Source of the DNA: Flavobacteriaceae bacterium
GTDB taxonomy: Bacteria; Bacteroidota; Bacteroidia; Flavobacteriales; Flavobacteriaceae
Reading direction: 5' to 3'
DNA length: 64,000 nt
NCBI GenBank assembly: GCA_027082925.1
Contig: JALWTD010000017.1
Location: 310,001 to 374,000, forward strand
Shown here: one piece after another, positions 40,061-56,176 of the stretch
Layout of the letters: each line of letters begins with the position of its first letter
Position numbering within the stretch: position 1 is the stretch's first letter
The notes under the pieces: model-generated
What the model was told of the DNA's origin: nothing
Databases searched by the model: none
Seen by the model: the letters and a program-made list of their open reading frames with translations, nothing else
Translations under genes and position numbers: made by a program

Positions 40061-40108
40061 ACTGATTATCAGTTATTTATATTTTTTTAAATACTGATTT
40101 AAATCAGT
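40061..40108 (+). promoter_or_regulatory. Pair of ACTGAT...ATCAGT inverted repeats (Fnr/Crp-like operator)
   Basis: The distal site (40061-40073) is ACTGAT-T-ATCAGT. The proximal site (40093-40108) is ACTGATTTAAATCAGT, a perfect 16-bp palindrome containing TGAT-N4-ATCA, the core of Fnr/Crp-family boxes. The centres are 33.5 bp apart. The proximal centre (40100.5) is 29.5 bp upstream of the -7 element, which puts it near -41.5 from the predicted transcription start, the standard class II activator position. Confidence 0.65.
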
Positions 40109-40129
40109 GTTTTAGACCTTCCTTCCTTT

Positions 40130-40137
40130 TAAATTTA
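40130..40137 (+). promoter_or_regulatory. -7 element of the Fe-S/NrfD/cytochrome operon
   Basis: TAAATTTA differs from TAnnTTTG only in the last base. No -33 TTTG is present, as expected for an activator-dependent promoter. Confidence 0.5.
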
Positions 40138-40183
40138 TAGTAAAGAATTTAAACACGCTATTTAGTCATCTAAAAGAAAAACT

Positions 40184-40450
40184 ATGAGCCACACTTCTAA
40201 AAAAGAAACAAAAATTAGCCGAAGAGGTATTCTTCCCTTATTAGGAAGCCTGGCACTGCTTCCCTATTTAGGTTTTAGTAAAGATACTGATACTAAAGAA
40301 ACTACTTCAACCGATGAAGAATTTAAAACACTTTTAAAGTCTGATGGTACAACTGTAAAGGTAAAAGTTACAGCTTTAAAAAAATCGAAAGTTCTAAAAA
40401 AGAATGTTTCTAACAAATCACTACTTAGTTGGCTAGGTAGAAAACTATAA
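40184..40450 (+). CDS. Small Tat-signal protein at the head of the Fe-S/NrfD operon
   Basis: An 88-residue protein with a twin-arginine signal, SRRGILPLLGSLALLPYLG (about 12-30), and a mature part of only about 55 residues. The mature segment LLKSDGTTVKVKV resembles LMTTDGHLVEVD in the next gene's Fe-S protein, which also has a Tat signal. It has no Cys and so binds no Fe-S cluster by itself. The gap to the Fe-S gene is 12 bp. It could be a small subunit or a Tat-coexported assembly partner. I know no named family for it. Confidence 0.75.
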   Translation: MSHTSKKETKISRRGILPLLGSLALLPYLGFSKDTDTKETTSTDEEFKTLLKSDGTTVKVKVTALKKSKVLKKNVSNKSLLSWLGRKL

Positions 40451-40462
40451 CCAAAACGAATC

Positions 40463-41419
40463 ATGAAAAACGACAGTAATTCAAGACGTAAATTTTTAAA
40501 CAACGGTCTAAAAGCCGGAATAGCTACTGTTATTGGTGGTATTGGGCTTTCTAAAATGGCCACAAAATTAAATGCCAAAACCGATGGTAAAAAAGTAGAG
40601 TTAATGACTACCGATGGCCATTTGGTAGAGGTTGATGCTAGTGAAATTATAGAAGAAAAAACAACTAATTCTAAAAGTTACACCGTAAGAGAAGGCTTTA
40701 AAAATAAAAAGTTTGTAATGGTGGTAGATTTAGCCAAATGTAAAAATGCATTAAAATGTGTTAGTGCCTGCAATAAACATCACTATATAACAGGTAAAAA
40801 TGCTTGGCTAAAAGTATATAAAATGCAAGAATCTAAAGATACTGCTCCTTACTGGATGCCTACAGCTTGTCAACATTGTGACCAACCTGCTTGTGTTACT
40901 GTTTGTCCGGTTGATGCCACTTTTAAAAGAAGAGACGGAATTGTACTTATTGACAATAATAGATGTATTGGTTGTAGATTTTGTATGGCAGCTTGCCCGT
41001 ACTCTACCAGAGTATTTAATTGGAGTGAACCTGACCAAGGAGATATCACATTAAACTTAAGCATGGAACAAGAAACACAACCTTCACCAGAACACGGAGG
41101 ACTTCCAAGTATAAAAGGAACTGTAGATAAGTGTGATTTTTGCCCTCATGAAATTAAAAAAGGAAAACTACCTCATTGTGTAGCTGCCTGCCCTAACGGT
41201 GTATTTTATTTTGGAGACAAGTATGAAGATACTGTTACAAACGGAGACGAAACACTACGATTTAGTAAATTATTAAAAGATAAATCTGGGTACAGATTAA
41301 TGGAAGGCTTAGGTACAGAACCAAGCGTGTATTATTTACCTCCTGTTGATAGACTCGTTGATTTCGAAAAAGGGTTGAAACAATACGACGAATACCAATC
41401 TGTAAAAAAATCTGAATAA
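40463..41419 (+). CDS. Periplasmic four-cluster Fe-S protein (NrfC/PsrB/QrcC-like)
   Basis: A 318-residue electron-transfer subunit with Tat signal SRRKFLNNGLK, so it should fold in the cytoplasm and act in the periplasm. Four ferredoxin-type Cys groups are visible: C93/C99/C103, C136/C139/C144/C148, C168/C171/C174/C178 and C224/C227/C239/C243. Only 15 Cys are present. The first group reads CxxAxxCxxxC, with Ala96 replacing the usual second Cys, so one site may hold a [3Fe-4S] cluster. It lies 2 bp upstream of the NrfD gene, its likely membrane partner. Confidence 0.9.
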   Translation: MKNDSNSRRKFLNNGLKAGIATVIGGIGLSKMATKLNAKTDGKKVELMTTDGHLVEVDASEIIEEKTTNSKSYTVREGFKNKKFVMVVDLAKCKNALKCVSACNKHHYITGKNAWLKVYKMQESKDTAPYWMPTACQHCDQPACVTVCPVDATFKRRDGIVLIDNNRCIGCRFCMAACPYSTRVFNWSEPDQGDITLNLSMEQETQPSPEHGGLPSIKGTVDKCDFCPHEIKKGKLPHCVAACPNGVFYFGDKYEDTVTNGDETLRFSKLLKDKSGYRLMEGLGTEPSVYYLPPVDRLVDFEKGLKQYDEYQSVKKSE

Positions 41420-41421
41420 TT

Positions 41422-42738
41422 ATGGAAAATTACGATAATCTTCTCAACGATCTAGCACCCAAAAAATTTGGTAAAGTAGGTGTTATTTGGACTTGCTCTT
41501 TAATTGCAATTATTATTGTAGGTATAATCGCTTATATAGATCAACTTATAAAAGGACAAATTGTGACCAATATGCGCGATTACGCTCTTTGGGGTATATA
41601 CATTTCAAACTTTGTGTTTTTTGTTGCCACCAGCTTTGTGGGATCTGTAACCGTAGCCATACTTAGGTTAACAAAAAACAAATGGAGAACACCTCTTGTA
41701 AGAATTGCTGAAATAATTTCATTGGCCGCTATTGCTATGGCAGGAGTTACCATTATGATTGATATGGCTAGACCAGACCGATTGTTAAACCTGTTTATAC
41801 ATGCCAGATTACAATCGCCTATTACATGGGATGTTATAATAATACCAACGTATATTGTTATTAGCTTTTTGCTACTTTATTTTCCATTAATTCCTGATTT
41901 TGCCATCCTAAAAAAACATTTTAAAGATAAAAATCCGGTGTTAAGTAAATGGTACGGAAAACTCTCTTTAAACTGGAAGGGTACTGCAGTACAAAAAGCA
42001 TTGCAAGAAAAATCAATTAGAATTATAGCTTTAATGATTATTCCTGTAGGTTTAATACTACAAACTATTGATGCGTGGCTGTTTTCTACCACTTACCGAA
42101 TTGGGTGGGATAGCACAAATATGGGTCCTTATTTTATTGCAGGTGCTTTTGTTGCCGGTATAGGTGCTTTAGTAACCGTTGTATATATTGTTAGAAGAGC
42201 TTACCATTTAGAAGCATACATCACAGATTTTCATTTTGACAAACTCGGAAAACTTCTTGTATTGGCTTGTTTAACTTATTTGTACTTCAATATCAATGAA
42301 TATTTACTTCCGGCATATACCGTAACAAAAGATGAATCGGTACATTTGAACACTTTGTTTAGCGGAAGCTATTCACCTATTTTTTGGGCTGTTACAATTA
42401 TAGGGCTCATTTTTCCAATACTATTTCTACTTTTCAAAAAAGGAAGAAAGCCGCTACCTATGTTTATTATAGGCTTGGTTGTTGTTTTAGCATCTTGGTG
42501 GAAACGCTATTTAATTGTAACACCAACGCTTTTACATCCATTTTTGCCAATTCAAGGTGTTCCAAAATCTTGGCATCATTATTTTCCAAGCATACATGAG
42601 TGGCTTATTACTTTAGCCACACTAGCAATGGCACTATTAATTATTACACTGTTAGTTCGCTTTTTACCAATAATTCCTATACAAAGAACAGCTGACGAAC
42701 AAGCATTATTAAACAACGAAAAAGATACAAAGTCATGA
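41422..42738 (+). CDS. NrfD/PsrC-type quinol-interacting membrane protein
   Basis: A 438-residue integral membrane protein with about ten hydrophobic helices. It matches the NrfD/PolS family, whose members exchange electrons and protons between menaquinol and a periplasmic Fe-S partner. No haem-ligating pattern is expected in this family. It follows the Fe-S gene with a 2-bp gap and overlaps the next gene by ATGA. The complex probably oxidises menaquinol and hands electrons to the Fe-S protein and then to the cytochrome c encoded downstream. Confidence 0.9.
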   Translation: MENYDNLLNDLAPKKFGKVGVIWTCSLIAIIIVGIIAYIDQLIKGQIVTNMRDYALWGIYISNFVFFVATSFVGSVTVAILRLTKNKWRTPLVRIAEIISLAAIAMAGVTIMIDMARPDRLLNLFIHARLQSPITWDVIIIPTYIVISFLLLYFPLIPDFAILKKHFKDKNPVLSKWYGKLSLNWKGTAVQKALQEKSIRIIALMIIPVGLILQTIDAWLFSTTYRIGWDSTNMGPYFIAGAFVAGIGALVTVVYIVRRAYHLEAYITDFHFDKLGKLLVLACLTYLYFNINEYLLPAYTVTKDESVHLNTLFSGSYSPIFWAVTIIGLIFPILFLLFKKGRKPLPMFIIGLVVVLASWWKRYLIVTPTLLHPFLPIQGVPKSWHHYFPSIHEWLITLATLAMALLIITLLVRFLPIIPIQRTADEQALLNNEKDTKS

Positions 42739-43601
42739 AAAAAAAGTATAACATCCAACTTGTTTTATTGATATTAATTGGGCTTTTCTCTTTTAACAAC
42801 GGACTCTTATACGCTCAAAAGAAAGTTAAGAAAAATAAGGTCCGAATAAAAGCTCAATACATAAATGAAATAAATGGAGATAGATACATTGTTGTAAAAG
42901 CTTCATCAAAAATAAAACGAAAAATACAAAAAATAAACGGTGCCGATTTAACTGTTTACACTATTTTAAATGATGAAAAACATAAATTAGGTCAGGTTAC
43001 AACCAACGTTGAAGGTGAAGGTATTTTTACGTTGAGCAATAAACCTAACTTTAAACCAGATTCAACCGAGACATATACCATACTAGTTGAATTTAAAGGA
43101 AATGAACAATTTAAAAAGGCAAAGAAAAAAATAAAATTTAAAAATGCCTTTATTACAAGTAAGGTTTTTGAGAAAGACAGCATTAACTATATTACTGCAA
43201 TTTTAACCGACCCAAATATAGGTCCGCTTAACGAACAACTTCTTGAAGTTCGAATAAAAAGACTTATAAATCCGCTACCTGTTGGCGAAGGCACTTACAC
43301 AACCGATGAGAGTGGTAGCATTACAGTACCAATAGAAGCTGATGTTCCTGGTGTTGACGGAATTTTAACACTCGAAGTTGTATTAGCTGATAGTGATGAG
43401 TACGGAACTGTAATTTCTCAAGTGAATGCTCCGGTTGGTATTCCAATTGTACACGAAAGTACTTTTGACGAAAGAACCTTATGGTCTCCAAGAAACAAAA
43501 CTCCTCTATTCTTATTAATATTTCCTAACTTATTAATATTTGGAATATGGGGGCTAATTATATATCTAATCTCAAATTTATTTAAAATAACTAAATCGTA
43601 A
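42735..43601 (+). CDS. Periplasmic beta-rich protein with C-terminal membrane anchor
   Basis: A 288-residue protein of unknown function. A signal peptide (about 1-28, ending LLYAQ) is followed by two predicted beta-sandwich domains (about 40-125 and 130-240), and then a C-terminal transmembrane helix, LFLLIFPNLLIFGIWGLIIY. The start overlaps the NrfD stop by 4 bp (ATGA), so it is translationally coupled and most likely an extra subunit or scaffold of the respiratory complex. No cofactor motif is visible. Confidence 0.8.
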   Translation: MKKKYNIQLVLLILIGLFSFNNGLLYAQKKVKKNKVRIKAQYINEINGDRYIVVKASSKIKRKIQKINGADLTVYTILNDEKHKLGQVTTNVEGEGIFTLSNKPNFKPDSTETYTILVEFKGNEQFKKAKKKIKFKNAFITSKVFEKDSINYITAILTDPNIGPLNEQLLEVRIKRLINPLPVGEGTYTTDESGSITVPIEADVPGVDGILTLEVVLADSDEYGTVISQVNAPVGIPIVHESTFDERTLWSPRNKTPLFLLIFPNLLIFGIWGLIIYLISNLFKITKS

Positions 43602-43612
43602 ATTTAAACAAT

Positions 43613-44011
43613 ATGAAAACAATCAAAATTTTAACTCTTATTAGCATTGTATGTTTTGCTTTTTATTCTTTTACTACGCTCGTTCAAGAAGAATGGAAAG
43701 TGCCAGAAAAATATCAAAAAATGAAAAATCCTACAGACCCTAAAGCTGATTTAGCGTATGGTAAATCTCTATACAATAAACATTGTAAATCATGCCACGG
43801 GAAAGAAGGATATGGAGACGGCCCTAAAGCCGATGAACAAGAAGGTGATTTAGGTGATTTTTCTTCAGAAGAATTCCAAGCTCAATCTGATGGAGCTTTA
43901 TTTTACAAAACTTCTTTTGGTAGAAATGATATGCCTGAATACAGAAAGAAAATTCCAGATGACGAAGAAAGATGGCTCATTGTAAATTACTTGAGAACAT
44001 TGGCAGAATAA
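43613..44011 (+). CDS. Class I c-type cytochrome, monohaem
   Basis: A 132-residue periplasmic electron carrier. An N-terminal hydrophobic segment (about 4-25) acts as signal or anchor. The single haem site is CKSCH near residue 60, and the distal Met is probably in RNDMPEYRKKI. It is the last gene of the Tat/Fe-S/NrfD operon, 11 bp after the anchored beta-rich protein. It likely accepts electrons from the complex and passes them to a terminal reductase or oxidase not encoded here. Confidence 0.93.
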   Translation: MKTIKILTLISIVCFAFYSFTTLVQEEWKVPEKYQKMKNPTDPKADLAYGKSLYNKHCKSCHGKEGYGDGPKADEQEGDLGDFSSEEFQAQSDGALFYKTSFGRNDMPEYRKKIPDDEERWLIVNYLRTLAE

Positions 44012-44026
44012 CATTTTAGATATATG

Positions 44027-44063
44027 ATTAAAAAAACCGAACATTGTGTTCGGTTTTTTTAAT
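44027..44063. terminator. Bidirectional terminator between the cytochrome c gene and hemN
   Basis: A perfect 17-bp stem (left arm ATTAAAAAAACCGAACA) closes a 3-base loop, with A- and T-runs on either side. It ends both convergent operons and abuts the hemN stop codon. Confidence 0.92.
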
Positions 44064-45425
44064 TTAAATGGTCATAGAAAAAACGCGTGTGTCGGGTTTA
44101 TTTTTAACCAAACGAAGATCAAACGCCATACAAATATTTCGTACAAACATTCTGCCTTTTTCTTTTACTTTTATTTGATTGCCTACAACTTCAACTAAAT
44201 TATCGGCTATCATTTCATCCAATCTATTTATAATTTCTGCTCTTGTATGCATATCTAAACCTACCTCCCATGAAGTTTCCAAATTACACATCAAATTTAA
44301 AATGTGTTTTCTAATAATTAAATCTGTATTTGTTAGCAAATGTCCTCTAAAAACAGGTAAATTTCCTTGATTTACTCTTTCCGTATATGCTTCAATTGTT
44401 TTTTCATTCTGAGCAAAAGCATACCAAGAATCACTAATAGAAGACATTCCTAACCCAATCATTAATTGCGTTTTTCCCGCTGTATATCCCATAAAATTAC
44501 GATGTAGTTTTTTAGATTCCATCGCCTTATACAAGGCATCTGTTGGTAACGCAAAATGATCCATACCTATTTCAACATAACCATTATCAAAAAACAACTG
44601 TTTTCCTAATTCGTATAAATATCTTTTCTCTTTATCTTTTGGTAAGTCATTTTCATCAAACCCTCGTTGCCCAACACCTTTAATCCAAGGTACGTGAGCG
44701 TAGCTGTAATAGGCAATTCTATCTGGTTTTAATACTACGGTTTTTTTAATGGTATCTCTAATACTTTCTTCGGTTTGAAAAGGCAATCCAAAAATTAAAT
44801 CATGGCTAATAGATTGATAACCTATTTCTTTTGATTGGTTATGTACTTTTTGTACTTGCTCAAAAGATTGTATTCTATGAATTGCTTTTTGTACTACAGA
44901 ATCGTAATCTTGAATTCCAAAACTATTTCTATTTGCTCCCAGGTCAAAAAGTACTTGTAATTGTTCTTTGGAAGTATGGTTTGGATGTCCTTCATAACTA
45001 AAATCAAACTCTTTAAACTTATCTGCTCTTTTAAAAATACCTTCAATAAGCTTGGTCAAGTTTTCAGAAGAAAAAAATGTAGGTGTTCCTCCTCCAAGAT
45101 GAATTTCTCTAATTTTAGGACGTTCATTCAATAAATCACAATACAAATCCCACTCTTTTAAAACAGTTTCTATATAAGGCTGCTCAACTTCATGACGTTT
45201 GGTTATTTTTTTATGACAGGCACAAAACGTACACAAACTTTCGCAAAAAGGTAAGTGAATGTATAAACTTATTCCTTCTTGAGTATTACTTTCTTGAAAA
45301 GATTTAACAACCGTTTTTTTCCAATCGGCAAGTGCAATTCCTTCTTTATCCCAAAAAGGCACTGTTGGGTAACTTGTATATCTTGGTCCGGGGATATTGT
45401 ATTTCTGAATTAATTTTGAATCCAT
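44064..45425 (-). CDS. hemN: Oxygen-independent coproporphyrinogen III oxidase (radical SAM)
   Basis: HemN decarboxylates coproporphyrinogen III to protoporphyrinogen IX without oxygen. It has 453 residues; the radical SAM motif is CESLCTFCAC (C61, C65, C68, with C70 completing the HemN-type CxxxCxxCxC). GGGTPTF follows, and the C-terminal HemN domain is present. It is the last gene of the six-gene leftward heme operon; its ATG overlaps the hemE stop (TAATG). No oxygen-dependent HemF is in the window. Confidence 0.96.
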   Translation of the reverse strand: MDSKLIQKYNIPGPRYTSYPTVPFWDKEGIALADWKKTVVKSFQESNTQEGISLYIHLPFCESLCTFCACHKKITKRHEVEQPYIETVLKEWDLYCDLLNERPKIREIHLGGGTPTFFSSENLTKLIEGIFKRADKFKEFDFSYEGHPNHTSKEQLQVLFDLGANRNSFGIQDYDSVVQKAIHRIQSFEQVQKVHNQSKEIGYQSISHDLIFGLPFQTEESIRDTIKKTVVLKPDRIAYYSYAHVPWIKGVGQRGFDENDLPKDKEKRYLYELGKQLFFDNGYVEIGMDHFALPTDALYKAMESKKLHRNFMGYTAGKTQLMIGLGMSSISDSWYAFAQNEKTIEAYTERVNQGNLPVFRGHLLTNTDLIIRKHILNLMCNLETSWEVGLDMHTRAEIINRLDEMIADNLVEVVGNQIKVKEKGRMFVRNICMAFDLRLVKNKPDTRVFSMTI

Positions 45426-46453
45426 TAGTTATATTCTTTTACAGCATCAATAAATGCTTTTGCATTTTCGATAGGTACGTTTGGTAAAATACCATGACCT
45501 AAATTTACAATGTATTTATCTTTACCAAATTGATTAATCATTTGAGTAACCATTTTTTTAATTTCAGAAGGAGGTGATAACAAACGTGTTGGGTCAAAAT
45601 TACCTTGAAGTGTTATTTTGTTTCCGGTTAATTTTCTTGCCATTTCAGGTGTAATTGTCCAATCTACTCCCAGTGCAGAAGCATTTGAGTTTGCCATTTC
45701 TTCAAGGGCAAACCAACAGCCTTTACCAAAAGCTATTACCGGAGCTTCCTCTTTTAGAGCTTCTATAATTTGGTTAATGTATTTCCAAGAAAATTCTTGA
45801 TAATCTACAGGAGACAACATTCCTCCCCAAGAATCAAATATTTGTACAGCATCAACTCCCGCTTTAACTTTCTCTTTCAAATACGCAATGGTAGTATCGG
45901 TTATTTTTTGCAGTAACGTGTGAGCTACAACAGGCTGAGTAAAACAAAACTCTTTTGCTTTATCAAAAGTTTTTGAGCCTTGACCTTGCACACAGTAACA
46001 AAGAATTGTCCAAGGAGAACCTGCAAATCCTATTAAAGGAATCTCATCATTTAACATTTGTTTGGTGACCTTAATGGCATCCATCACATACCCGAGCGTT
46101 TCTAAAATATCTGGAACCAGTACGGTATCTACATCCTTTTGAGAGCGAATTGGGTTTGGTAACCAAGGTCCAACACCCGGTTTCATTTCTACCTCTATAT
46201 TCATAGCCTGAGGAACAACTAAAATATCAGAAAATAAAATAGCTGCATCCATACCAAATCTACGAATTGGTTGCACTGTTATTTCTGAAGCTAATTCTGG
46301 CGTTCTGCAACGTGTAAAAAAATCGTACTTTTCACGAATTGCAATAAATTCAGGTAAATATCTACCTGCTTGACGCATCATCCAAACAGGAGGTCGTTCA
46401 ACAGTATCTCCTTTTAATGCTCTTAAAAATAAATCGTTTTTAATTTTTGACAT
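45425..46453 (-). CDS. hemE: Uroporphyrinogen decarboxylase
   Basis: HemE removes four carboxyl groups from uroporphyrinogen III to give coproporphyrinogen III. The 342-residue protein contains the N-terminal signature [16 protein letters not shown], the catalytic Asp in [16 protein letters not shown], and [12 protein letters not shown]. The C-terminal [12 protein letters not shown] is standard. It is 2 bp downstream of hemL and overlaps hemN by one base. Confidence 0.97.
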
Positions 46454-46455
46454 CT

Positions 46456-47754
46456 TTAATTTTTAAATTTATCTGCGACTGCTTTCATAGCTATTTTTAT
46501 AGCTTCTTTAACTTTTAGCAAATCTCTTTTACTTAGTTCTGTAGATAAAAACCACGCCTCAAATTGAGACGGTGGTAAAAACACTCCGTGCTCGGTCATT
46601 TTCCAGAAAAATGTTTTAAACTTATTGGTATCACTGGTTTGTGCAGATTCAAAATTGGTTACTTTTTCTTTTGTAAAAAAAGGATTAATCATAGAACCAA
46701 ATCTGTTTACTTGTAAGTCTACGCCATTTTCACGAGCTGCTTCTAGCAAAATTTGCTCAAGACGTTCAGCTGTTTTTTCAAAATCGTTGTACGGATTTTT
46801 CTTTTTTAATTCTTTAAGTGTTGCTATACCACAAGCCATTGCTATAGGGTTTCCAGATAATGTTCCTGCTTGGTACATATCGCCTAAAGGAGCTACCATT
46901 TCCATAATTTCGTTTCTCGCTCCGTATGCGCCTACCGGAAAACCACCACCAACAACTTTACCTAAACAGGTAATATCGGCTTCAATATTTAACAATTCTT
47001 GAGCACCTCCAAATTTTGATCTAAATCCGGTCATTACCTCATCTACAATTAACAAGATTCCTTTTGCTTTTGTTAAAGCTCGTAATTCTTGAATAAACAT
47101 TGAATCTGGTACTACAACTCCCATATTTCCGGCTATTGGTTCAATAATAACCGCAGCAATATCTGTATGTTTTTTTAAGTGATTTTTTACACTATCAATG
47201 TTATTGTATTCTGCAATTAAGGTGTTTCTAACGGCTTCGTCAGGAACTCCTTTGCTTCCGGGTAAACTTAGTGTTGCTAGTCCTGATCCTGCTGCAACAA
47301 GTAATGCATCGGAATGCCCGTGGTAACAACCTGAGAATTTAATAATTTTGTTTTTTCCAGTAAATGCTCTTGCCAAACGAATTGCACTTAGCACTGCTTC
47401 TGTTCCTGAGTTTACAAAACGTACTTTGTCCATACCCGGAAAGGCTTCGCAAACTATTTTTGCTAAAATAATTTCACCTTTTGTAGAAGCACCAAATGTA
47501 TATCCGTTTTTTAGGTATTTTTTAATTGTTTTTTCTACAACACTATTTCTATGCCCTAAAATCATTGGACCGTAAGACAACACAAAATCTATATATTCAT
47601 TTCCATCAACATCGTAAATTTTGCTTCCTTTTGCCTTTTCTATAAAAATAGGTACACCTCCTACCGATTTAAAAGCTCTAACCGGTGAATTTACTGCACC
47701 AACCAAATGTTTTTTTCCTTTGGTGTATAATTCTATTGATTTTTCTAACTTCAT
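46456..47754 (-). CDS. hemL: Glutamate-1-semialdehyde 2,1-aminomutase
   Basis: HemL is a PLP enzyme that makes 5-aminolevulinate in the C5 pathway. The 432 residues carry [35 protein letters not shown], the [11 protein letters not shown] motif with the PLP-contacting Asp, and the Lys in [16 protein letters not shown]. It lies 20 bp after hemB and 2 bp before hemE on the leftward strand. Confidence 0.97.
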
Positions 47755-47774
47755 TTTAATACTTTTCTCTAAAA

Positions 47775-48743
47775 TTATTTTTTGTTTAAAAGTTTAGCTA
47801 CTTCTTTTGCGAAATATGTAATAATAATATCGGCTCCCGCTCTTTTCATTGATAAAAGACTCTCCATCATAACTTTATTTCCGTCAATCCAGCCTTTTTC
47901 AGCAGCCGCTTTAATCATTGCATATTCTCCACTTACATTGTAACAAGCTATGGGTCTGTCAAAATTATTTTTTAAATCTCTGATAATATCTAGATACGAT
48001 AAGGCTGGTTTTACCATTAAAATATCGGCACCTTCTTGGTCGTCAAAAGTAGCTTCTCTTAAACCTTCATCTCTATTTGAAGGATCCATTTGATAGGTTC
48101 TTCGATCTCCAAATGCAGGAGCCGAGTCTGCAGCATCTCTAAAAGGTCCGTAAAATGCCGAAGCATATTTAACCGCATATGACATAATAGGTATATTTTG
48201 AAAACCTGTATTATCTAGTGCTTGACGAATTGTGTCTATCATTCCATCCATCATTCCAGAAGGAGCTACCATATCTACACCTGCCTTAGCATGTGAAATA
48301 ACTTGTTTTGCAATATTGGGAAGTGTAGCATCATTATCAACATCATTGTCATGTATTACTCCGCAATGTCCATGGCTTGTGTATTCGCAAAAACAAACGT
48401 CGGTAATTACGTATAACGAAGGATAATTCTTTTTAATAAACCGAACTGCTTGTTGCATAATTCCGTTATCATTCCATGTTTCTGAACCCTCTTCATCTTT
48501 TTTTGTTGGTATTCCAAAAAGTAAAACTGCGGGGATATCAAGTGCTACAACTTCGTCTAATTCTTTTGAAATTTTATCTAAAGAATACCGCTTAATCCCC
48601 GGCATAGATATAATTTCTGTTTCTATATTTTCGCCTTCTTCTACAAACAACGGATAAATTAAATCGTCAACGGTTAACTTATTTTCACGTACCAATCGAC
48701 GAATGTTTTTGGTTTTACGTAAGCGTCTTGTTCTGTGTATCAT
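47775..48743 (-). CDS. hemB: Delta-aminolevulinic acid dehydratase (porphobilinogen synthase)
   Basis: HemB condenses two 5-aminolevulinate molecules into porphobilinogen. It has 322 residues. The Cys-rich zinc site is [14 protein letters not shown] (C117, C119, C127), marking a zinc-dependent enzyme. The Schiff-base lysines are in [15 protein letters not shown] and [13 protein letters not shown]. Gaps are 11 bp from hemCD and 20 bp to hemL. Confidence 0.97.
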
Positions 48744-48754
48744 AAAATTAAATT

Positions 48755-50323
48755 TTATTTAAAATACTCATTTACGGTTTTTAAAACACTTTCAACTGTT
48801 GCTAACTTAGCTACTTCAACCTGGTCAAAATATTTTTTAGCTTCGTTTGCGGTAGTATCACCTATACAAAAAGCAATACCATTTGTAAAAGTATTTTCTT
48901 TGATATAACTCTCTACACCTGTTGGACTAAAAAACAGAATCCCTTTGTATTTAGAAGCTATTTTTTTTGGTGTTAACAATGTTTTGTAACATTCAACTTC
49001 TGTAAGTTCAACATGGTGTTGTTTTAAAATAACAGGTAAATCATCTCTTCGTTTATTTCCACAGAAAAAAGTTACTGCTGCTACTTTTTCAATAGTTACC
49101 AAGTAATTGGCCAATTTTTTAGCTGTAGTCTCTGAGTGGGTTACTTTTCCTATTTTTTTCTCTATTAGTCGTTTTGTTCTTCGTCCAACACAGTATATGT
49201 TTTTAAAATCCAATGCGGTACTATCAAAGTTATTAAGGAGTGATTCTACCGCATTTTGACTTGTAAACACCACATTTTCAATAGTTTTTTTAACAACTAC
49301 AGGTTTTAAACGATTGCTTCTAATCGTAATAAAATCACTCATATCTAACCCAATATTAGCTGATATCACACTTTTTTGAGCTGCTGATAATACTTTTGTA
49401 GCATACACTTTTATCTCTTTTTCTATAGTTTCGATGTACTGCATTAGTTTTTTACCTCCTCTTTCAAGAATATAATTTGCGGCAAACTCTCCTAAATCAG
49501 ATACATTATCTACAGGAACTGTTTTTTGAAATTCTATTTTATTTTTTCCATCGGGACTAAACAATACGCCTTTAAATTTCAGCTCTTCATTTTTAATGGT
49601 CGCTAAAGCACCTATTGGAGCCGTGCATCCTCCTTCTAAAACTTGTAAAAATTTACGCTCAATAGTAACACATGTTTCTGTTTCTTCATGGTTTAAAAAT
49701 TTACATATTTCTAGAATTTCTGTGTTAGTTTCTAATGCAGCTACCATTACAGCACCTTGTGCCGGCGCAGGAATCATCCAATCTAATTTAATAAAATTGT
49801 CTGGTAATAATTTTATTCGTTTTAGTCCGGCTAATGCAAAAATAGCGCCGTTCCAGTTATTTTCTTCTAACTTCCGCAAACGGGTATTTACATTTCCACG
49901 TAAATCTGTGATTGTATGGTTTGGGTATCGATATAACCATTGTGCTTTTCTTCTCAAACTTCCGGTAGCAATAACAGCCGTACTATTTTCAAAAAACGTT
50001 TCGTCAGATTTTAACACCAATACATCGTTAAAATTACCTCTTTTTAAAACGGCCGCCTGAACAATTCCTTCAGGTAATTGCGTAGGTACATCTTTTAAAG
50101 AGTGTACTGCAATATCAATTTTATCATTTAACAGTGCAATGTCTAAATTTTTAGTAAAAACACCCGTAGTACCAAGTTGATATAAAGGTTTGTTTAAAAC
50201 CTCGTCACCAATAGAGTCTATTTTTACTATTTCCGTTTCATACCCTAAGTGATTTAACTGACTGGCAACTGTATTTGCTTGCCAAAGTGCTAGTTCACTA
50301 GATCTTGTTCCAATTCTAATCAT
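48755..50323 (-). CDS. hemC-hemD: Hydroxymethylbilane synthase / uroporphyrinogen-III synthase fusion
   Basis: A 522-residue bifunctional protein. Residues 1 to about 305 are Hem[24 protein letters not shown], the catalytic Asp region and the dipyrromethane-binding Cys233 in [11 protein letters not shown]. Residues from about 330 to 522 match Hem[38 protein letters not shown] and [11 protein letters not shown]. The fusion would keep unstable hydroxymethylbilane next to the cyclising enzyme. There is no stop or frame change between the halves. It overlaps hemA by 4 bp (ATGA). Confidence 0.93.
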
Positions 50324-51591
50324 TTCGATTCATTCTCATTAAGGTTTAATTCTCTAAAATTAAACATTTTACTAATTACATTTATACTTTGGTCAACTGC
50401 GGTATCTTCTTCTTTCAAATGTTTTACAAACTGTGTTGTGATTTTTTGAATTAAACGAGATGTAACCACCTCTGCATGTTCAACATTAAAGTTTTTAATT
50501 TTTTTAGAATGAAAATTAATTTCGTCTTGCTGAATATGTTGTAACGATTCTTTTAACGCATTTACTGCAGGAATAAATTTTCTATATGCAATCCAATCGT
50601 TAAACTCTGCTCTATACGTGTCTATAATTTTTTCTGCAGCGGGAATTTCATTTCGTCTAGTTTCAATGGTTTTATCTGTAATTTGAGAAAGCTCATCTAC
50701 ATCAACTACCGTAATTCCTTCTAACTGTTTAACGGCTACATCAACATTTTTAGGCATCGATAAATCTACTATAAGCATTTCTTTTCCTTCTGAAATGTGA
50801 ACCGGAGTAATGGTGGGCGAGCTTGCTCCTGTAGAAACAATTAACACATCGGTAGTGCGCAGTTGAGAGGTTAGTTTGGAAAAAGGAAGTACCGATATTT
50901 CGGGGTGCTGTTTACCAAAGGCTAAAGCAGTTTCCATTGTTCTGTTCACTAGAGTTATATGCTTGTTTGATGTGTACTCTAATATATTTTTACAGGTATT
51001 TGTTCCTATTTCTCCTAATCCGTAAACAAGAATATTTTTAGTATTGTACTCCGGAACATTCTCTATAATATACTGAACTGCAGCATAAGCAACAGATGTT
51101 GTACCCGAACTTAATTTTGTGTTATTTTTAACCTCCTTACTTGCGTGTAAAACCAAATTCATCAATCGTTCTAAATAAGCATTTGTAGTTCCCAACTCTT
51201 TTGCTTGTTTAAAAGACTCTTTTAACTGCCCTACAATTTCATAATCGCCTAAAATTTGACTGTCTAAACCTGTACCTATTCTAAACAAATGTTTTACCGC
51301 TTCTTTATTTTTGTACACATTTGATACATTGATAAAATCTTCTACATTTCCGTTTGAATATTTTACAAGTAAGCTAATTAATTCAAAAGGGTGTTTTGCA
51401 AAACCGGTAATCTCTGTTCTATTGCAAGTTGACAATACAAAAATACCATCTATTCCTTTTTCTTTGGCTTCTTTTAACAGTAAAATTTGGTTGTTTTTAG
51501 TGATACTAAAAGTACCTCGTACTTTAACATCTGCCTTTTTATAACTCAACCCTACATTGTATAATTTTGCGGGCATATTTTCTAAACTCAT
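50320..51591 (-). CDS. hemA: Glutamyl-tRNA reductase
   Basis: HemA reduces glutamyl-tRNA(Glu) to glutamate-1-semialdehyde, the first committed and usually regulated step of C5 heme synthesis. I use the ATG at 51591 (MSLENMPAKLYNVGLSYKKADV) rather than an upstream TTG. The catalytic Cys is in VLSTCNRTEITG; the NADPH-binding GLGEIGTNTCKN and the C-terminal dimerisation helix are present; length is about 423 residues. It heads the leftward operon hemA-hemCD-hemB-hemL-hemE-hemN and is divergent from the AraC regulator. Confidence 0.96.
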   Translation of the reverse strand: MSLENMPAKLYNVGLSYKKADVKVRGTFSITKNNQILLLKEAKEKGIDGIFVLSTCNRTEITGFAKHPFELISLLVKYSNGNVEDFINVSNVYKNKEAVKHLFRIGTGLDSQILGDYEIVGQLKESFKQAKELGTTNAYLERLMNLVLHASKEVKNNTKLSSGTTSVAYAAVQYIIENVPEYNTKNILVYGLGEIGTNTCKNILEYTSNKHITLVNRTMETALAFGKQHPEISVLPFSKLTSQLRTTDVLIVSTGASSPTITPVHISEGKEMLIVDLSMPKNVDVAVKQLEGITVVDVDELSQITDKTIETRRNEIPAAEKIIDTYRAEFNDWIAYRKFIPAVNALKESLQHIQQDEINFHSKKIKNFNVEHAEVVTSRLIQKITTQFVKHLKEEDTAVDQSINVISKMFNFRELNLNENESK

Positions 51592-51612
51592 AAAAATAGT
51601 ATTTCCAATAAG

Positions 51613-51684
51613 TATCGACAAAGGTACTCATATATTTTAGCAGAAAATATCGATAAAAGTACTAATACTATCGACAACAGTTAC
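51613..51684. repeat. Three near-identical direct repeats upstream of hemA
   Basis: The repeats are TATCGACAAAGGTACT (51613-51628), TATCGATAAAAGTACT (51648-51663) and TATCGACAACAGTTAC (51669-51684). Their starts are 35 and 21 bp apart; 21 bp is two helical turns. A fourth copy, CATCGACAAAAGTACT, lies inside the AraC gene at 51896-51911. AraC-type regulators usually bind direct repeats, so these are candidate sites for the adjacent regulator controlling hemA. Confidence 0.65.
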
Positions 51685-51766
51685 AATATTCAATTTAGAA
51701 CAAATCTAAATAGTTTTTGTTAACATACTTTTAACAAAAAACCCATTAAATAAAGGGTTTAAAAAT

Positions 51767-51780
51767 ATGATAATTATCAT
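51767..51780. promoter_or_regulatory. ATGATAATTATCAT palindrome upstream of the AraC regulator
   Basis: A perfect 14-bp palindrome containing TGAT-N4-ATCA and followed by TAATAAT. It can be read as an Fnr/Crp-like half of the set seen at 40100 and 54487, or as a Fur-like GATAAT array. Its centre is 51.5 bp upstream of the -7 box, 22 bp (two turns) further than in the other two promoters. Confidence 0.45.
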
Positions 51781-51824
51781 TAATAATATGAAAATATTTG
51801 ATTTCCTTGCATTATTATTTATTG

Positions 51825-51832
51825 TACTTTTG
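51825..51832 (+). promoter_or_regulatory. -7 element of the araC-hemH-hemJ operon
   Basis: TACTTTTG is a perfect TAnnTTTG match; TTTG at 51797-51800 is a -33 candidate 24 bp upstream. The predicted leader is about 28 bases. Confidence 0.55.
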
Positions 51833-51866
51833 CAATAAATAATTTATTAATTCATAAAAATACTTT

Positions 51867-52769
51867 ATGAAGTCTGATTTAAGTAAATATAAAAACATCG
51901 ACAAAAGTACTCAGCTGCTTTTTGACGAAAAAGAGACATTTAAAATACTTCATTTTAACAACTTATCTCATCAAAATACTTTTTTAAAGTACTATTTAGA
52001 GAACAATTGTATTCAACTTTTCTTTTGTAATAAAGGCGAATATATAGCTAGCTTTAATTTTGAACACTGCGCAATAAATATCTCTGAAAATAATTCAAAT
52101 ATGGTGTATTTTAAAGATGAGAAAATGAACATTCTTTTTAATTTACAACCGAAATCTGAAGCCACTATTGTATTAATTTCTATAGAATATTTTCACTCCT
52201 TATTTTCTAACGAAGGGAATTTCTTATTTAACTTCAGTAATTTTAAAGTAGGCAAACCAATTATTGAACCTAGAACTCTTAACCCTTCAATTAAAATAAT
52301 TCTCAACCAACTTATTTCTAAGCAAATTTCTGAAGCACTTAGACCTATTTATATTAAAGGAAAAGTGTACGAATTACTTAGCTACTATTTTAATACAACA
52401 ACCGAAGAAGACAGCAATACCTGTCCTTATATATCTAATGAAGAAACAATTAGTCAAATAAAACACGCTAAACAACTTATTATAAAGGAAATGAACAACC
52501 CTCCTTCTTTAAACGATTTAGCGAAAGAAGTTGGACTCAATATTAAAAAATTAAAAACCGGATTTAAAGAATTTTACGGTGTGCCGGTATATGCGTTTTT
52601 ATTGAATTACAAAATGGAGTTAGCAAAAAAATTATTGATAGAAAAACAATTAAATGTGAATGAAATTGCCTTACAATTAGGGTACAGTGCTTCCAGTCAC
52701 TTTATTGCTGCTTTCAAGAAAAAATATGGAATTACACCAAAACAATTTTCTAAATCGCAAATCTTATGA
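51867..52769 (+). CDS. AraC-family transcriptional regulator (probable heme-gene regulator)
   Basis: A 300-residue regulator. The N-terminal part (about 1-190) shows no named ligand domain but resembles PchR-type sensory regions. The C-terminal AraC DNA-binding domain spans about 205-298: NPPSLNDLAKEVGLNIKKLKTGFKEFYG is the first helix-turn-helix and LNVNEIALQLGYSASSHFIAAFKKKYGITPKQF the second. It shares a 275-bp control region with hemA and overlaps hemH by 4 bp. Position and nearby direct repeats point to control of both heme operons; the effector (iron, heme or a precursor) is inferred, not shown. Confidence 0.88.
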   Translation: MKSDLSKYKNIDKSTQLLFDEKETFKILHFNNLSHQNTFLKYYLENNCIQLFFCNKGEYIASFNFEHCAINISENNSNMVYFKDEKMNILFNLQPKSEATIVLISIEYFHSLFSNEGNFLFNFSNFKVGKPIIEPRTLNPSIKIILNQLISKQISEALRPIYIKGKVYELLSYYFNTTTEEDSNTCPYISNEETISQIKHAKQLIIKEMNNPPSLNDLAKEVGLNIKKLKTGFKEFYGVPVYAFLLNYKMELAKKLLIEKQLNVNEIALQLGYSASSHFIAAFKKKYGITPKQFSKSQIL

Positions 52770-53785
52770 AAGGAGCCTTACTTGTAAATTTAGGATCACC
52801 TAAAAGCACTTCTGTTAGCGATGTTAAAAGTTACTTGAATGAATTTTTAATGGATAAACGTGTTATAGACACTCCGTATCTTTTAAGAGCTTTTCTTGTA
52901 AAAGGGATTATTTTAAATACACGCCCTAAAAAATCGGCAGAAGCCTATCGTAAAATATGGTGGAAAGAAGGTTCTCCTTTAATTGTTTTATCGGAAAGAC
53001 TCACCAAAAAAGTAAATCAAAAAACAACTATTCCTGTTGAGCTTGCAATGCGGTACGGACAACCTTCTATTAAAAATGGTATCCAAAAATTGGCCGATAA
53101 AGGTGTTACCGAAATACTGCTAATACCGCTATATCCACAATTTGCTATGGCTACTACAGAAACTATTACTGTGCTTGCCGAAAAAATTATAAAAAAGCAT
53201 TTTTCGAACATAACCCTCACATACATTTCTCCTTTTTACAACAATGAAGATTACATTAATACCTTAAGTAATAGCATAAATAATACACTTAAAAAGGTGA
53301 AGCCAGACCACTTGTTATTTTCGTACCACGGTATTCCCGAAAGACATATTAAAAAGTCCGATATTACAAAATCACATTGTAAAATAGATGGAAGTTGTTG
53401 TAAATCACCCTCGGCAGCACATAAATATTGTTACCGACATCAATGTTATGAAACAACTAGACTTGTGGCAAAAAAATTAAACCTAAAAGAAGGCGACTAC
53501 AGTGTTTCTTTTCAATCTAGGCTAGGAAAAGATCCTTGGTTACAACCTTACACCGATAAGACCATTGATTTACTCGCTAAAAAAGGTGTTCAAAAATTAG
53601 CTGTAGCAACACCTGCTTTTGTAGCAGATTGCTTAGAAACTTTAGAAGAAATAGGCATCGAAGCCAAACAATCTTTTCACAATAACGGTGGTAAAGACTT
53701 TACAACCATTCCTTGCTTAAACGATAATACAGAATGGGTTGATACACTATCAAATTGGATTAACACCTGGAACAAAAACAACTAA
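52766..53785 (+). CDS. hemH: Ferrochelatase
   Basis: HemH inserts Fe2+ into the porphyrin ring. It has 339 residues; the N-terminal KGALLVNLGSPKS, the iron-binding and catalytic His in FSYHGIPERHIKKSD and the later SFQSRLGKDPWLQPYT are all standard. A Cys-rich stretch (about 205-225: CKIDGSCCKSPSAAHKYCYRHQC) could hold an Fe-S cluster, as in some bacterial ferrochelatases. It starts inside the AraC stop (ATGA) and ends 2 bp before hemJ. Confidence 0.96.
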   Translation: MKGALLVNLGSPKSTSVSDVKSYLNEFLMDKRVIDTPYLLRAFLVKGIILNTRPKKSAEAYRKIWWKEGSPLIVLSERLTKKVNQKTTIPVELAMRYGQPSIKNGIQKLADKGVTEILLIPLYPQFAMATTETITVLAEKIIKKHFSNITLTYISPFYNNEDYINTLSNSINNTLKKVKPDHLLFSYHGIPERHIKKSDITKSHCKIDGSCCKSPSAAHKYCYRHQCYETTRLVAKKLNLKEGDYSVSFQSRLGKDPWLQPYTDKTIDLLAKKGVQKLAVATPAFVADCLETLEEIGIEAKQSFHNNGGKDFTTIPCLNDNTEWVDTLSNWINTWNKNN

Positions 53786-53787
53786 TT

Positions 53788-54339
53788 ATGGAATACTTAT
53801 ACATTAAATCACTTCACATCATATTTGTAACTACTTGGTTTGCCGGATTATTTTATATTATTCGCTTGTTTATCTATTACAAAGAAGCTGAAGACAAACC
53901 AGAAATTGAACGAAAAATTTTACTAAAACAGTATAAGTTAATGATTAAACGACTTTGGTACATTATTACGTGGCCTTCTGCCGTTTTAGCAACCATTTTT
54001 GCCACTTGGCTTCTTGTACTTCAACCGGCTTGGCTTCAAACAAACTGGATGCTTATTAAATTAGGGTTTGTAGCTGCATTATATGCTTACCACTGGAGTT
54101 GTCAGATTATGTACAATCAAATTGAAAATGGCAAATTAAAATATTCTTCGTTTAAACTCCGTATTTGGAACGAGGTTGCAACCATTATTTTATTTGCGTG
54201 TGTATTTTTAGTTGTATTAAAAAATACTTTAGGCTGGGTTTTTGGTGTTTTAGGAATTGTTTTTGTGTCTATTCTACTCATGTTAGGTATAAAATTGTAT
54301 AAAAACATCCGAAAAAAAAATAGCTGGGATAAAAATTAA
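53788..54339 (+). CDS. hemJ: HemJ-type protoporphyrinogen IX oxidase
   Basis: HemJ oxidises protoporphyrinogen IX to protoporphyrin IX in the membrane; it replaces HemG/HemY in many bacteria. The 183-residue protein has about four to five helices. The conserved start KSLHIIFVTTWFAGLFYIIRLFIYY contains the essential His, and KRLWYIITWPSAV holds the conserved Lys-x-Leu/Trp region. It is the last gene of the araC-hemH-hemJ operon and completes the heme pathway in this locus. Confidence 0.9.
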   Translation: MEYLYIKSLHIIFVTTWFAGLFYIIRLFIYYKEAEDKPEIERKILLKQYKLMIKRLWYIITWPSAVLATIFATWLLVLQPAWLQTNWMLIKLGFVAALYAYHWSCQIMYNQIENGKLKYSSFKLRIWNEVATIILFACVFLVVLKNTLGWVFGVLGIVFVSILLMLGIKLYKNIRKKNSWDKN

Positions 54340-54474
54340 ATAATACGATTTATTTAAAATACTTACCGATTTTTTAACAGTCTTTTAAATTAAAATAATT
54401 CACTTTTAATAAAGTTTAAACTATTTGAATTTTAATTAAAAATACAGCATTCTAATAACCACGTACTTAGCTTG

Positions 54475-54500
54475 TTTAGTATGATTTTAATCATACTAAA
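54475..54500 (+). promoter_or_regulatory. 26-bp palindrome (Fnr/Crp-like) upstream of iorA
   Basis: Two perfect 12-bp arms, TTTAGTATGATT and its complement, flank a 2-bp centre at 54487.5 and include TGAT-TTTA-ATCA. It resembles the palindrome at 40093-40108, and its centre is the same 29.5 bp from its -7 element. Confidence 0.65.
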
Positions 54501-54516
54501 ATTACATCTATTGCCT

Positions 54517-54524
54517 TAATTTTA
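54517..54524 (+). promoter_or_regulatory. -7 element of iorA-iorB-acd
   Basis: TAATTTTA differs from TAnnTTTG only in the final base, as in the respiratory-module promoter. No -33 TTTG is evident. The leader would be about 31 bases. Confidence 0.5.
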
Positions 54525-54559: not shown

Positions 54560-56176
54560 ATGAAAAAATTACTATTAGGCAATGAAGCTCTCGCTCAAGG
54601 AGCTATTGATGCTGGAATATCGGGTGTATACGCCTATCCAGGAACACCCTCAACAGAAATCACAGAATACATTCAACGCTCTAAAACAGCAAAAGAGCTA
54701 AACATACACTCTAAATGGTCTGTCAATGAAAAAACAGCAATGGAGGCCGCTCTAGGAATGTCTTACGCAGGTAAAAGAGCTTTAACTGTAATGAAACATG
54801 TAGGGCTAAATGTAGCTGCCGACGTTTTCATGAACATGTCTGTTTCCGGTATTAACGGAGGACTTGTTGTAGTTGTTGCTGATGACCCTTCAATGCATTC
54901 TTCACAAAACGAACAAGACTCTAGATACTACGGTAAATTTGCTATGATTCCTATACTAGAACCTTCTAACCAACAAGAAGCGTATGAAATTACAAAATAC
55001 GCTTTTGAACTTTCAGAAAAGGTAAGTTTACCGGTATTAATTAGAATGGTAACCAGATTGTCTCACTCCAGAGCCGGTGTTATTACAGGAAATCGATTGA
55101 AACAAAATACCATTAAACTACCTTCAGATAGTAAGCAATTTTCTTTAATACCTATGTTTGCAAGAGCTAGATATAAACATTTGGTAGCCATTCAAAATGA
55201 TTTATTAGATATTTCAGAAAACAGTTATTTCAATCAATTTATAAAAGCACCCAACACCTCAATAGGTATTATTGCTTCGGGTATTGCATATAACTATGTT
55301 ATGGAAAATTTTGAAAGTGGTCAATGTCCATATCCTATTTTAAAAATTTCTCAATATCCAATTCCTAAAAAACCACTAAAAAAATTGTTTGATACTTGTA
55401 AAAAGGTATTGGTTTTAGAAGATGGATATCCTTTTATTGAAGAAGCTATTTCTGACTATTTAGGAGAAAACAGAAGAGTTATTGGTAGACTAAGTGGGGA
55501 TATTGTTCGTGTAGGCGAATTAAACCCAGACAACATAGCTAATGCCTTAGGATTTGATGTGGTTATTGACGAAAGTAAACCTAGCGTTGTTTCAAATAGA
55601 CCTCCTGAACTATGTGTAGGATGTGGCCATAGAGATTTATTTGATGCCATTAACAAACTCAGTAAAGAGATGGGAAGTCAACAAGTTTTTGGTGATATTG
55701 GATGCTATGCTTTAGGCGTTTTACATCCGTACAAAAGTATAAACACGCTTATTGATATGGGAGCTTCTATTACTATGGCAAAAGGAGCTGCAGATGCCGG
55801 AATTCATCCTGCAATTGCTATTATTGGTGATTCTACATTTACACACTCAGGAATGACCGGACTACTAGATGCTGTTATCGAAAAAACACCTATAACCGTT
55901 ATTATTTCGGACAATTCAGCCATTGCAATGACAGGTGCTCAAGATTCTTCAGCTTCAGGTAGACTTCTATCCATTTGTGAAGGTATTGGTGTTGAAAAAG
56001 AGCACATAAAGGTAATTACGCCGCTACATAAAAATTTGGAAGAAAATATAAATACCATTCGAGAAGAACTCAATTACAAAGGCGTTTCTGTTATTGTATC
56101 TCAACGACCTTGTGTGCAACTTCCAAAAGAAAAAAAAGACCGGTTAAAACAACTTAAAAAAGTGACTCTAAATTAA
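54560..56176 (+). CDS. iorA: Indolepyruvate:ferredoxin oxidoreductase alpha subunit, lacking the C-terminal ferredoxin domain
   Basis: IorA is the thiamine-diphosphate subunit that oxidatively decarboxylates aryl pyruvates to aryl-acetyl-CoA. It has 538 residues: an N-terminal pyrimidine-binding domain (GNEALAQGAIDAGISGVYAYPGTPST), a central domain, CVGCGHRDLFDAI with Cys352 and Cys355, and the ThDP-binding IIGDSTFTHSGMTGL (423-435). Typical IorA (600 or more residues) ends with a two-cluster ferredoxin domain. Here the protein stops soon after IVSQRPCVQLPKE and has no CxxCxxC motif. It is first in an operon with iorB and an ADP-forming synthetase. Confidence 0.92.
   Translation: MKKLLLGNEALAQGAIDAGISGVYAYPGTPSTEITEYIQRSKTAKELNIHSKWSVNEKTAMEAALGMSYAGKRALTVMKHVGLNVAADVFMNMSVSGINGGLVVVVADDPSMHSSQNEQDSRYYGKFAMIPILEPSNQQEAYEITKYAFELSEKVSLPVLIRMVTRLSHSRAGVITGNRLKQNTIKLPSDSKQFSLIPMFARARYKHLVAIQNDLLDISENSYFNQFIKAPNTSIGIIASGIAYNYVMENFESGQCPYPILKISQYPIPKKPLKKLFDTCKKVLVLEDGYPFIEEAISDYLGENRRVIGRLSGDIVRVGELNPDNIANALGFDVVIDESKPSVVSNRPPELCVGCGHRDLFDAINKLSKEMGSQQVFGDIGCYALGVLHPYKSINTLIDMGASITMAKGAADAGIHPAIAIIGDSTFTHSGMTGLLDAVIEKTPITVIISDNSAIAMTGAQDSSASGRLLSICEGIGVEKEHIKVITPLHKNLEENINTIREELNYKGVSVIVSQRPCVQLPKEKKDRLKQLKKVTLN

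Follow-up and report, generated by a model that had tools for sequence, protein, structure and literature searches.

Two palindromes in a Flavobacteriaceae genome as predicted operators of an Fnr-type class II regulon

The window analyzed here, a 64-kb stretch of contig JALWTD010000017.1 of a Flavobacteriaceae bacterium, contains two operons that are each preceded by a palindrome at the same distance from a -7 box. Operon 1 encodes an Fe-S protein, an NrfD-type membrane protein and a cytochrome c, and operon 2 (iorAB-acd) encodes indolepyruvate ferredoxin oxidoreductase and an acyl-CoA synthetase. Both palindromes are very likely operators of one Fnr-type class II activator that acts on sigma-A promoters lacking a -33 box. 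The original prediction had proposed one such regulator for both operons, and this is still the best reading of the spacing, the presence of an Fnr homologue and the conservation of the sites; a single regulator would also be the most economical one. Under low oxygen, an Fnr dimer would bind the palindrome at -41.5 and touch RNA polymerase, standing in for the missing -33 contact. The two operons would then be made alongside the denitrification and cbb3 genes, as part of a genome-wide regulon of low-oxygen, denitrification and ferredoxin metabolism. The likely regulator is an Fnr homologue of 228 aa whose gene adjoins those for the cbb3 oxidase, and the signal would be O2, possibly also NO, perceived via an Fe-S cluster held by C4, C7, C106 and perhaps C53. 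We infer binding, activation, the use of the predicted starts and the oxygen signal from sequence.

Operators and core promoters in the window

The elements concerned are the following:
40093..40108, no strand: predicted Fnr-type operator ACTGATTTAAATCAGT, centred at predicted -41.5 (sequence, genome gap peak, orthologous operons)
40130..40137, plus strand: -7 box TAAATTTA of the sigma-A type TAnnTTTR, predicted to span -12 to -5
54475..54500, no strand: predicted Fnr-type operator with core TGATTTTAATCA and 12-bp arms, predicted at -41.5 (iorA orthologues)
54517..54524, plus strand: -7 box TAATTTTA (sequence, offset as given in the main text of PMC9723704)
40061..40073, no strand: extra palindrome ACTGATTATCAGT of the form TGAT-N1-ATCA, centred at 40067, 33.5 bp upstream of the main site

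The first operator is a perfect 16-bp palindrome with its centre at 40100.5, and the second consists of two 12-bp arms that flank a central TT, itself without palindromy (12+2+12, centre 54487.5). Both contain the TGAT-N4-ATCA form that is seen at Fnr-type class II promoters, from which the sequence of the extra palindrome ACTGATTATCAGT differs. Palindromes and boxes lie where the original prediction had placed them, and the identical spacing that it reported was reproduced: at either operon the palindrome centre is 29.5 bp from the first T of the TAnnTTTA box, corresponding to 23 nt between ATCA and the box. Its statement that -33 boxes are missing likewise holds, as the spacer of operon 1 between palindrome and -7 box contains no TTG, and that of operon 2 has a single TTG located 3 nt before the box, which is too near for a -33 box. 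Within the window, TGATTTWAATCA occurs at these two places only, with 0.18 matches expected; for the looser TGATN4ATCA there were 4 matches and 1.4 expected, in agreement with the caution that the proximal palindrome alone is not rare. A search with Rfam retrieved no family above the gathering score in the window, so no known RNA family explains the palindromes.

On E. coli promoters, -41.5 is the classical class II position of FNR and CRP. According to the main text of PMC9723704, the sigma-A box TAnnTTTG of Flavobacterium psychrophilum spans -12 to -5 relative to mapped starts. With a centre 29.5 bp before the first T of the box, both palindromes would therefore be centred at -41.5, and the class II position suggested originally agrees with this offset and with the rigidity of the gap described below. 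The transcription starts predicted in this way, at 40142 and 54529, would give leaders of 42 and 31 nt. Spacer composition was determined for 87 sites with the same 23-nt spacing from four genomes. TTG was present in at most 6 of these 87 at any scanned position, and the bases directly after ATCA were T-rich (74, 60, 49 and 55% T). The 3' flank of ATCA was thus T in 74% of the sites, with a mixed 5' flank, and the base following TAnnTTT was A in 46 and G in 38 of them.

Spacing rule and Fnr homologue

The original prediction had named a genome search at this spacing, a search for a Crp/Fnr gene and a comparison of related species as checks, and all three came out in its favour. In the following, gap denotes the number of nucleotides between ATCA and the TAnnTTT box, gap 23 being the spacing at both window operons. 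The source genome comprises 2.47 Mb in 21 contigs, and its nearest named relatives are Lutibacter. Bare TGATN4ATCA occurs in it at 72 places, compared with 50 for the reversed pattern; given this mild enrichment, the idea that all matches are sites was rejected. With a TAnnTTT box 15-31 nt downstream there were 34 matches, against 13 in the reversed control. Gap 23 accounts for 16 of these 34, both window sites included, gap 22 for 4 and all remaining gaps together for 14; the 16 other gap lengths average 1.1 matches, and the Poisson P of the gap-23 peak is about 1e-13. The same peak was found in a genus set of 31 genomes, evenly drawn from a larger group: every genome had at least two gap-23 matches, which add up to 544; gap 22 has 166, and the reversed pattern 26.

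An evenly drawn set of 119 genomes of the order was used to relate the sites to the regulator, the mean over gaps 25-29 serving as the background for gap-23 matches. Where a close Fnr homologue was present (E <1e-50; 36 genomes), there were 189 gap-23 matches versus 41.4, a 4.6-fold excess, whereas the ratio was 1.14 (61 versus 53.4) in the 64 genomes without an Fnr match at 1e-20. For 15 genomes with a more distant homologue (1e-50 to 1e-40) the figures were 62 versus 21.6, and for 4 genomes with weak matches they were 12 versus 3.0. Gap-23 sites track the Fnr homologue across the genomes of the order. These data also bear on chance, namely that AT-rich DNA yields palindromes and TAnnTTT boxes whose equal spacing is coincidental. 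The mild enrichment of TGATN4ATCA alone would fit this explanation, but the gap peak, the conservation of sites despite diverged spacers and the dependence on an Fnr homologue do not; it is refuted by the spacing statistics and its probability is negligible.

Four proteins of the source genome exceed the cut-off of the HTH_Crp_2 family, the only profile used in the regulator search, so that other Crp/Fnr members may have been missed. Just one of them (L001, encoded at 9481-10167 of L066) has an Fnr-like recognition helix together with N-terminal cysteines. This protein of 228 aa scores 62.4 bits with HTH_Crp_2, and its best NCBIfam match is the Fnr model, over 219 residues and below the cut-off. 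The fnr gene is divergent to a gene for a ccoI-like ATPase, which is followed by the ccoNO and ccoG genes of a cbb3 oxidase. Between ccoI and ccoN lies TGACAATTATCA, a gap-23 site with one mismatch, and ccoN of a relative (L286) carries a perfect one.

The cysteines were inspected in an alignment of 30 sequences, namely the homologue of the source genome and its 29 best relatives, against the E. coli sequence. Cys occupies the positions of E. coli C20 and C23 in 29 of the 30 (one is truncated) and that of C122 in all 30. Of the four E. coli cluster cysteines C20, C23, C29 and C122, the set is incomplete, C29 being missing, and an extra Cys at position 53 is invariant in 30/30. Alignment with the sequence of the Aliivibrio fischeri FNR structure agrees, with C7, C53 and C106 present and the third ligand absent. 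In the recognition helix of E. coli FNR, E209, S212 and R213 play the key roles; compared with this E209-x2-S212-R213 arrangement, the aligned sequences keep E and R and have the S212 position replaced. The homologue may still work like FNR.

Predicted target genes

The genes of operon 2 are:
54560..56176, plus strand: iorA, indolepyruvate ferredoxin oxidoreductase alpha subunit (TIGR03336, below cut-off)
56181..56777, plus strand: iorB, indolepyruvate oxidoreductase beta subunit (NF005324, over cut-off)
56802..58859, plus strand: acyl-CoA synthetase of the ATP-grasp/CoA-binding type, acd-like (NCBIfam families below their cut-offs)

Conservation of the operator was followed in iorA orthologues from GTDB genomes, the best 80 of 259 relatives, all of which were examined. 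Among the 29 with at least 76% identity, 22 have the strict site at gap 23 and 5 have it with one mismatch, giving 27/29 close relatives. At 64-72% identity (n=34) there were 20 strict sites and 2 with one mismatch, and below 64% (n=17) a gap-23 site was found in none. The spacers of the more distant relatives have diverged while the site was kept. As a separate observation, a LacI-operator-like palindrome, CGAAAnCGnTTTCG or CGAAAACCTTTTCG, is located upstream of iorA in 8 of the 29 close relatives (L070, L071, L089, L091, L092, L095, L096 and L106), in the spacer between Fnr site and box wherever a strict Fnr site exists. It is absent from the window, and suggests an added repressor at iorA in those 8 relatives.

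Operon 1 is composed of five genes:
40184..40450, plus strand: 88-aa protein with a signal-peptide-like N terminus (by eye) and no known family, first gene of the operon
40463..41419, plus strand: Fe-S subunit (Pfam 4Fe-4S domains; best NCBIfam match DsrO, below cut-off)
41422..42738, plus strand: NrfD-type membrane subunit (best NCBIfam match DsrP, below cut-off)
42735..43601, plus strand: 288-aa protein without a credible family match
43613..44011, plus strand: cytochrome c

The operon contains no catalytic subunit, and its products probably form a complex linked to the quinone pool. Of 13 matches with 69-78% identity, 12 relatives were examined, and a homologue of the 88-aa gene was found directly upstream of the Fe-S gene in all 12. 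The strict palindrome with its box is present in 6/12, and in a further 2, judged by eye, the palindrome is followed at gap 23 by a TAnnTT box.

Other gap-23 sites in the source genome precede genes with Pfam support. These comprise citrate synthase, pyruvate phosphate dikinase (PPDK), a PNT-family protein (pntA), pyruvate:ferredoxin oxidoreductase (PFOR), a ResB/CcsA cytochrome c assembly protein, a KOR-like 2-oxoacid:ferredoxin oxidoreductase and nuoA, whose first in-frame start codon lies upstream of the true start. Two clusters belong to the same group, one with nosZ in third place and one with a COX1-family protein, which would be norB, and the cytochrome cd1 gene nirS. A CxxCH protein, lipoproteins and an OmpP1-like protein were assigned by sequence appearance only, and a FeoB-like gene (named by eye) has a gap-24 site 298 nt upstream. 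In three further genus genomes, 71 of 77 gap-23 matches lay in the stretches examined. Taking the four genomes together, with names assigned partly by eye, PFOR recurs as a target in 4/4, pntA, KOR and IOR in 3/4, and citrate synthase, the first gene of the nosZ cluster and SQR-like, Usp-like and Hsp20-like genes in 2/4.

Two side observations concern other gap-23 sites. At C13:74640-74681 on the minus strand (L052), a perfect site has no ORF of at least 60 aa within 420 bp downstream, and this site at C13:74681 could drive a small RNA; with it and the two window operons, the set of gap-23 sites in the source genome is complete. In relatives (L275, L318 and L302), gap-23 sites are densely clustered over stretches of about 4-16 kb, ahead of Usp-like, Hsp20-like and other small genes, named by eye; such a cluster is possibly a low-oxygen survival island.

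This target list raises the question of the signal. A NO-responsive regulator of the DNR/NnrR type, instead of or besides an oxygen sensor, would respond to NO from denitrification; the nosZ and nirS clusters share the same architecture, and DNR/NnrR regulators use Fnr-like sites. We consider this unlikely, since the sole HTH_Crp_2 regulator of the genome with an Fnr-type helix has Fnr-like cysteines and adjoins the cbb3 genes, and oxygen-type genes are numerous among the targets (nuo, pnt, PFOR, citrate synthase, cbb3). O2 limitation was reported to raise cbb3 oxidase and heme synthesis in F. psychrophilum in the main text of PMC9723704.

Several observations weigh against an Fnr-type activator acting through these sites. 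The strict site is absent in 7 of the 29 close iorA relatives, 5 of which have it with one mismatch. Four of the 12 close relatives of operon 1 lack a strict palindrome, and none was seen at 8 Fe-S matches of lower identity (L163-L170), one of which is without upstream DNA. Between site and start codon lie 338 nt at the KOR-like gene and 287 nt at pntA, implying long leaders. The reversed-pattern control lies below the true background, which makes the gap-to-gap comparison the sounder one, and related genomes share ancestry, so that hits are not all independent. In the order set, G045 and G075 have no gap-23 match although they are among the 36 genomes in which a close homologue was found. The gap-23 excess persists in the 15 genomes with a distant homologue, in 12 of which the alignment begins no earlier than residue 15 and so misses the CxxC; the N terminus of the Fnr homologue may differ in one family. 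Of the 12 matches in the genomes with weak Fnr hits, 9 are in G063 alone, where the site may be used by a different member of the family. At the C29 position, every one of the 29 sequences without a gap carries S, N or T (one has a gap), and because this third-ligand Cys is replaced, oxygen sensing by an E. coli-type cluster is not assured. Finally, PMC8510549 treats Crp/Fnr homologues of Flavobacteriales as MalR-like and predicts that they sense carbon sources.

Related site classes and known systems

A second class of sites, GTGATN4ATCAC (L324-L353, L056 and L061), was found in 23 genus genomes with a spacing that is offset by 1 bp: counted from ATCA, gap 22 occurs in 38 and gap 23 in 3 of 57 matches. 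Gene context was examined for 30 of the 57, and each of the 22 distinct gap-22 sites among them precedes one of four gene types: an Fe-S/NrfD protein, an SQR-like protein, a SulP transporter or a YeeE/YedE-type sulfur transporter, with Pfam support from the representatives of the source genome. There, the genes for the CRP-like proteins L002 and L004 flank the YeeE/YedE-type pair (L067), for which the genus search gave no GTGATN4ATCAC site. The class is probably read by CRP-like proteins such as L002 and L004, and two members of the family seem to act on one type of core promoter, from -41.5 and from -40.5. This class weakens the notion of a single regulator that works at gaps 22 and 23 without preference. 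Exceptions to the split are the nqrA site of the source genome, which has gap 22 without G/C flanks, and most of the listed gap-22 rows, which by eye lack a C after ATCA.

The CRP-like proteins L002, L003 and L004, all over the HTH_Crp_2 cut-off, might themselves bind the gap-23 sites and sense something else. At a distance of one gene from L003 is an SQR-like operon with a one-mismatch gap-23 site in its promoter, and relative G012 (L278 347) has a perfect gap-23 site 40 nt before an L003-like Crp ORF, which makes a hierarchy of regulators possible. This alternative is nevertheless improbable: the recognition helices of the three proteins, SRVVVSR/SREAVSR, would presumably fit GTGA rather than TGAT half-sites, GTGATN4ATCAC forms the separate class at gap 22 before sulfur genes, and in relatives the targets of that class include the YeeE/YedE-type gene. 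Together with the Fnr-type operators, these data lead to a tentative proposal that we hold to be somewhat less probable than its opposite. The genus would run two Crp/Fnr regulons, one reading TGATN4ATCA at -41.5 with a variant Fnr (C4, C7, C53 and C106) and the other GTGATN4ATCAC at -40.5, kept apart by 1 bp and the outer base. At the same tentative level, the -41.5 regulon, to which both window operons would belong, would cover low oxygen, denitrification and ferredoxin enzymes and the -40.5 regulon sulfur oxidation. If true, a 1-bp change in the distance to the same sigma-A box and an outer base pair would keep the circuits apart.

The window contains one further site:
51768..51779, no strand: third site TGATAATTATCA between hemA (minus strand) and araC-hemH-hemJ (plus strand), at gap 45 to TACTTTTG

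It is at about -63.5 from the predicted araC start, a class I-like position. In the genus loci compared (L239-L267 and the window; site form TATGA-N6-TCA), the third site with at most one mismatch was found at -158 to -160 of hemA in 21/29 loci (own included; 6 strict). A second hemA site, about 35 bp away at -121 to -125, is present in 13/29, and either site in 25/29. In 19 of the 21 loci the hemA site lies 43-45 nt before an araC-side TAnnTTT box, at about -62. Between the third site and hemA, an inverted repeat ATTTAGA-N5-TCTAAAT is located at 51693-51711 of the window, a similar one being visible by eye in most of 28 aligned genus loci, and repeated TACTTTTG-like boxes face hemA, also by eye.

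Such upstream positions are relevant to the possibility that the gap-23 palindromes are repressor or class I sites that merely happen to be near -41.5. The conserved site about 62 bp before the araC start speaks for it, as does a moderate excess at gap 45: for gaps 30-58 to TAnnTTTG boxes in 12 genus genomes, 14 of 131 matches have gap 45, and the other gaps average 4.2. Gap 23 is rigid to 1 bp, however, and TTG is not enriched in its spacer, as class II predicts, and by eye the 14 gap-45 rows include at least 8 in which a second TGATN4ATCA copy stands exactly 22 bp upstream of a strict gap-23 site; we regard this possibility as very remote. Tandem operators thus exist at about -63.5 and -41.5, cases being G148:C3:308759-308823, G148:C6:30096-30160, G012:C2:235299-235363, G019:C2:99705-99769 and others. 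A separate class I site class was not established, as the gap-45 excess is partly due to tandem operators and gaps 32 (12 matches) and 58 (13 matches) are as high, many of their rows being, by eye, one repeated sequence each.

The predicted Fnr-type regulon can be compared with several known systems. The class II site of E. coli FNR is TTGAT-N4-ATCAA centred at -41.5. The present sites share with it the TGAT half-site, the N4 spacer, the predicted position, the apparent lack of an upstream core element and anaerobic-respiration targets, and the regulator has the cysteines equivalent to C20, C23 and C122. Unlike in E. coli FNR, the outer T/A of TTGAT is not fixed, the helix reads TATE-S/T/L-x-IR instead of VETISR, C29 is replaced as described and Cys 53 is additionally invariant; the core promoter is the Bacteroidota TAnnTTTR box and not TATAAT. 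Regulators of the FnrL/FixK/ANR type of Proteobacteria sit beside cco (fix) genes. Similarly, the fnr gene here adjoins cbb3 genes and a site precedes ccoN, although the NCBIfam FnrL and Fnr models matched far below their cut-offs. E. coli CRP binds TGTGA-N6-TCACA at class II promoters; the GTGATN4ATCAC class shares this core but prefers gap 22 (centre -40.5) and sulfur targets. The -7 box is the one that PMC9723704 gives for sigma-A promoters of Flavobacterium (TAnnTTTG, spanning -12 to -5), differing in that it ends in A about as often as in G and that no upstream TTG is enriched. The main text of that paper has no occurrence of crp or fnr, and a survey of titles and abstract openings, confined to one open-access collection, returned no description of an Fnr regulon or of -41.5 sites in Flavobacteriia.

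The system described here is very probably of a familiar kind: an Fnr class II regulon, in this case one whose host lineage has a different core promoter and whose Fnr is a variant. Of specialist interest are the exact 1-bp rule, the variant cysteines and the content of the regulon. Bacteroidota promoters are unlike those of E. coli, which is why gene control in this group has been little mapped, and the rule "palindrome, 23 nt, TAnnTTTR" would make the Fnr regulon computable for a large environmental family. It would also connect the low-oxygen and denitrification programme with iorAB-acd and with an orphan complex of Fe-S, NrfD and cytochrome c proteins, and a 1-bp offset as the separator of two related regulators becomes testable.

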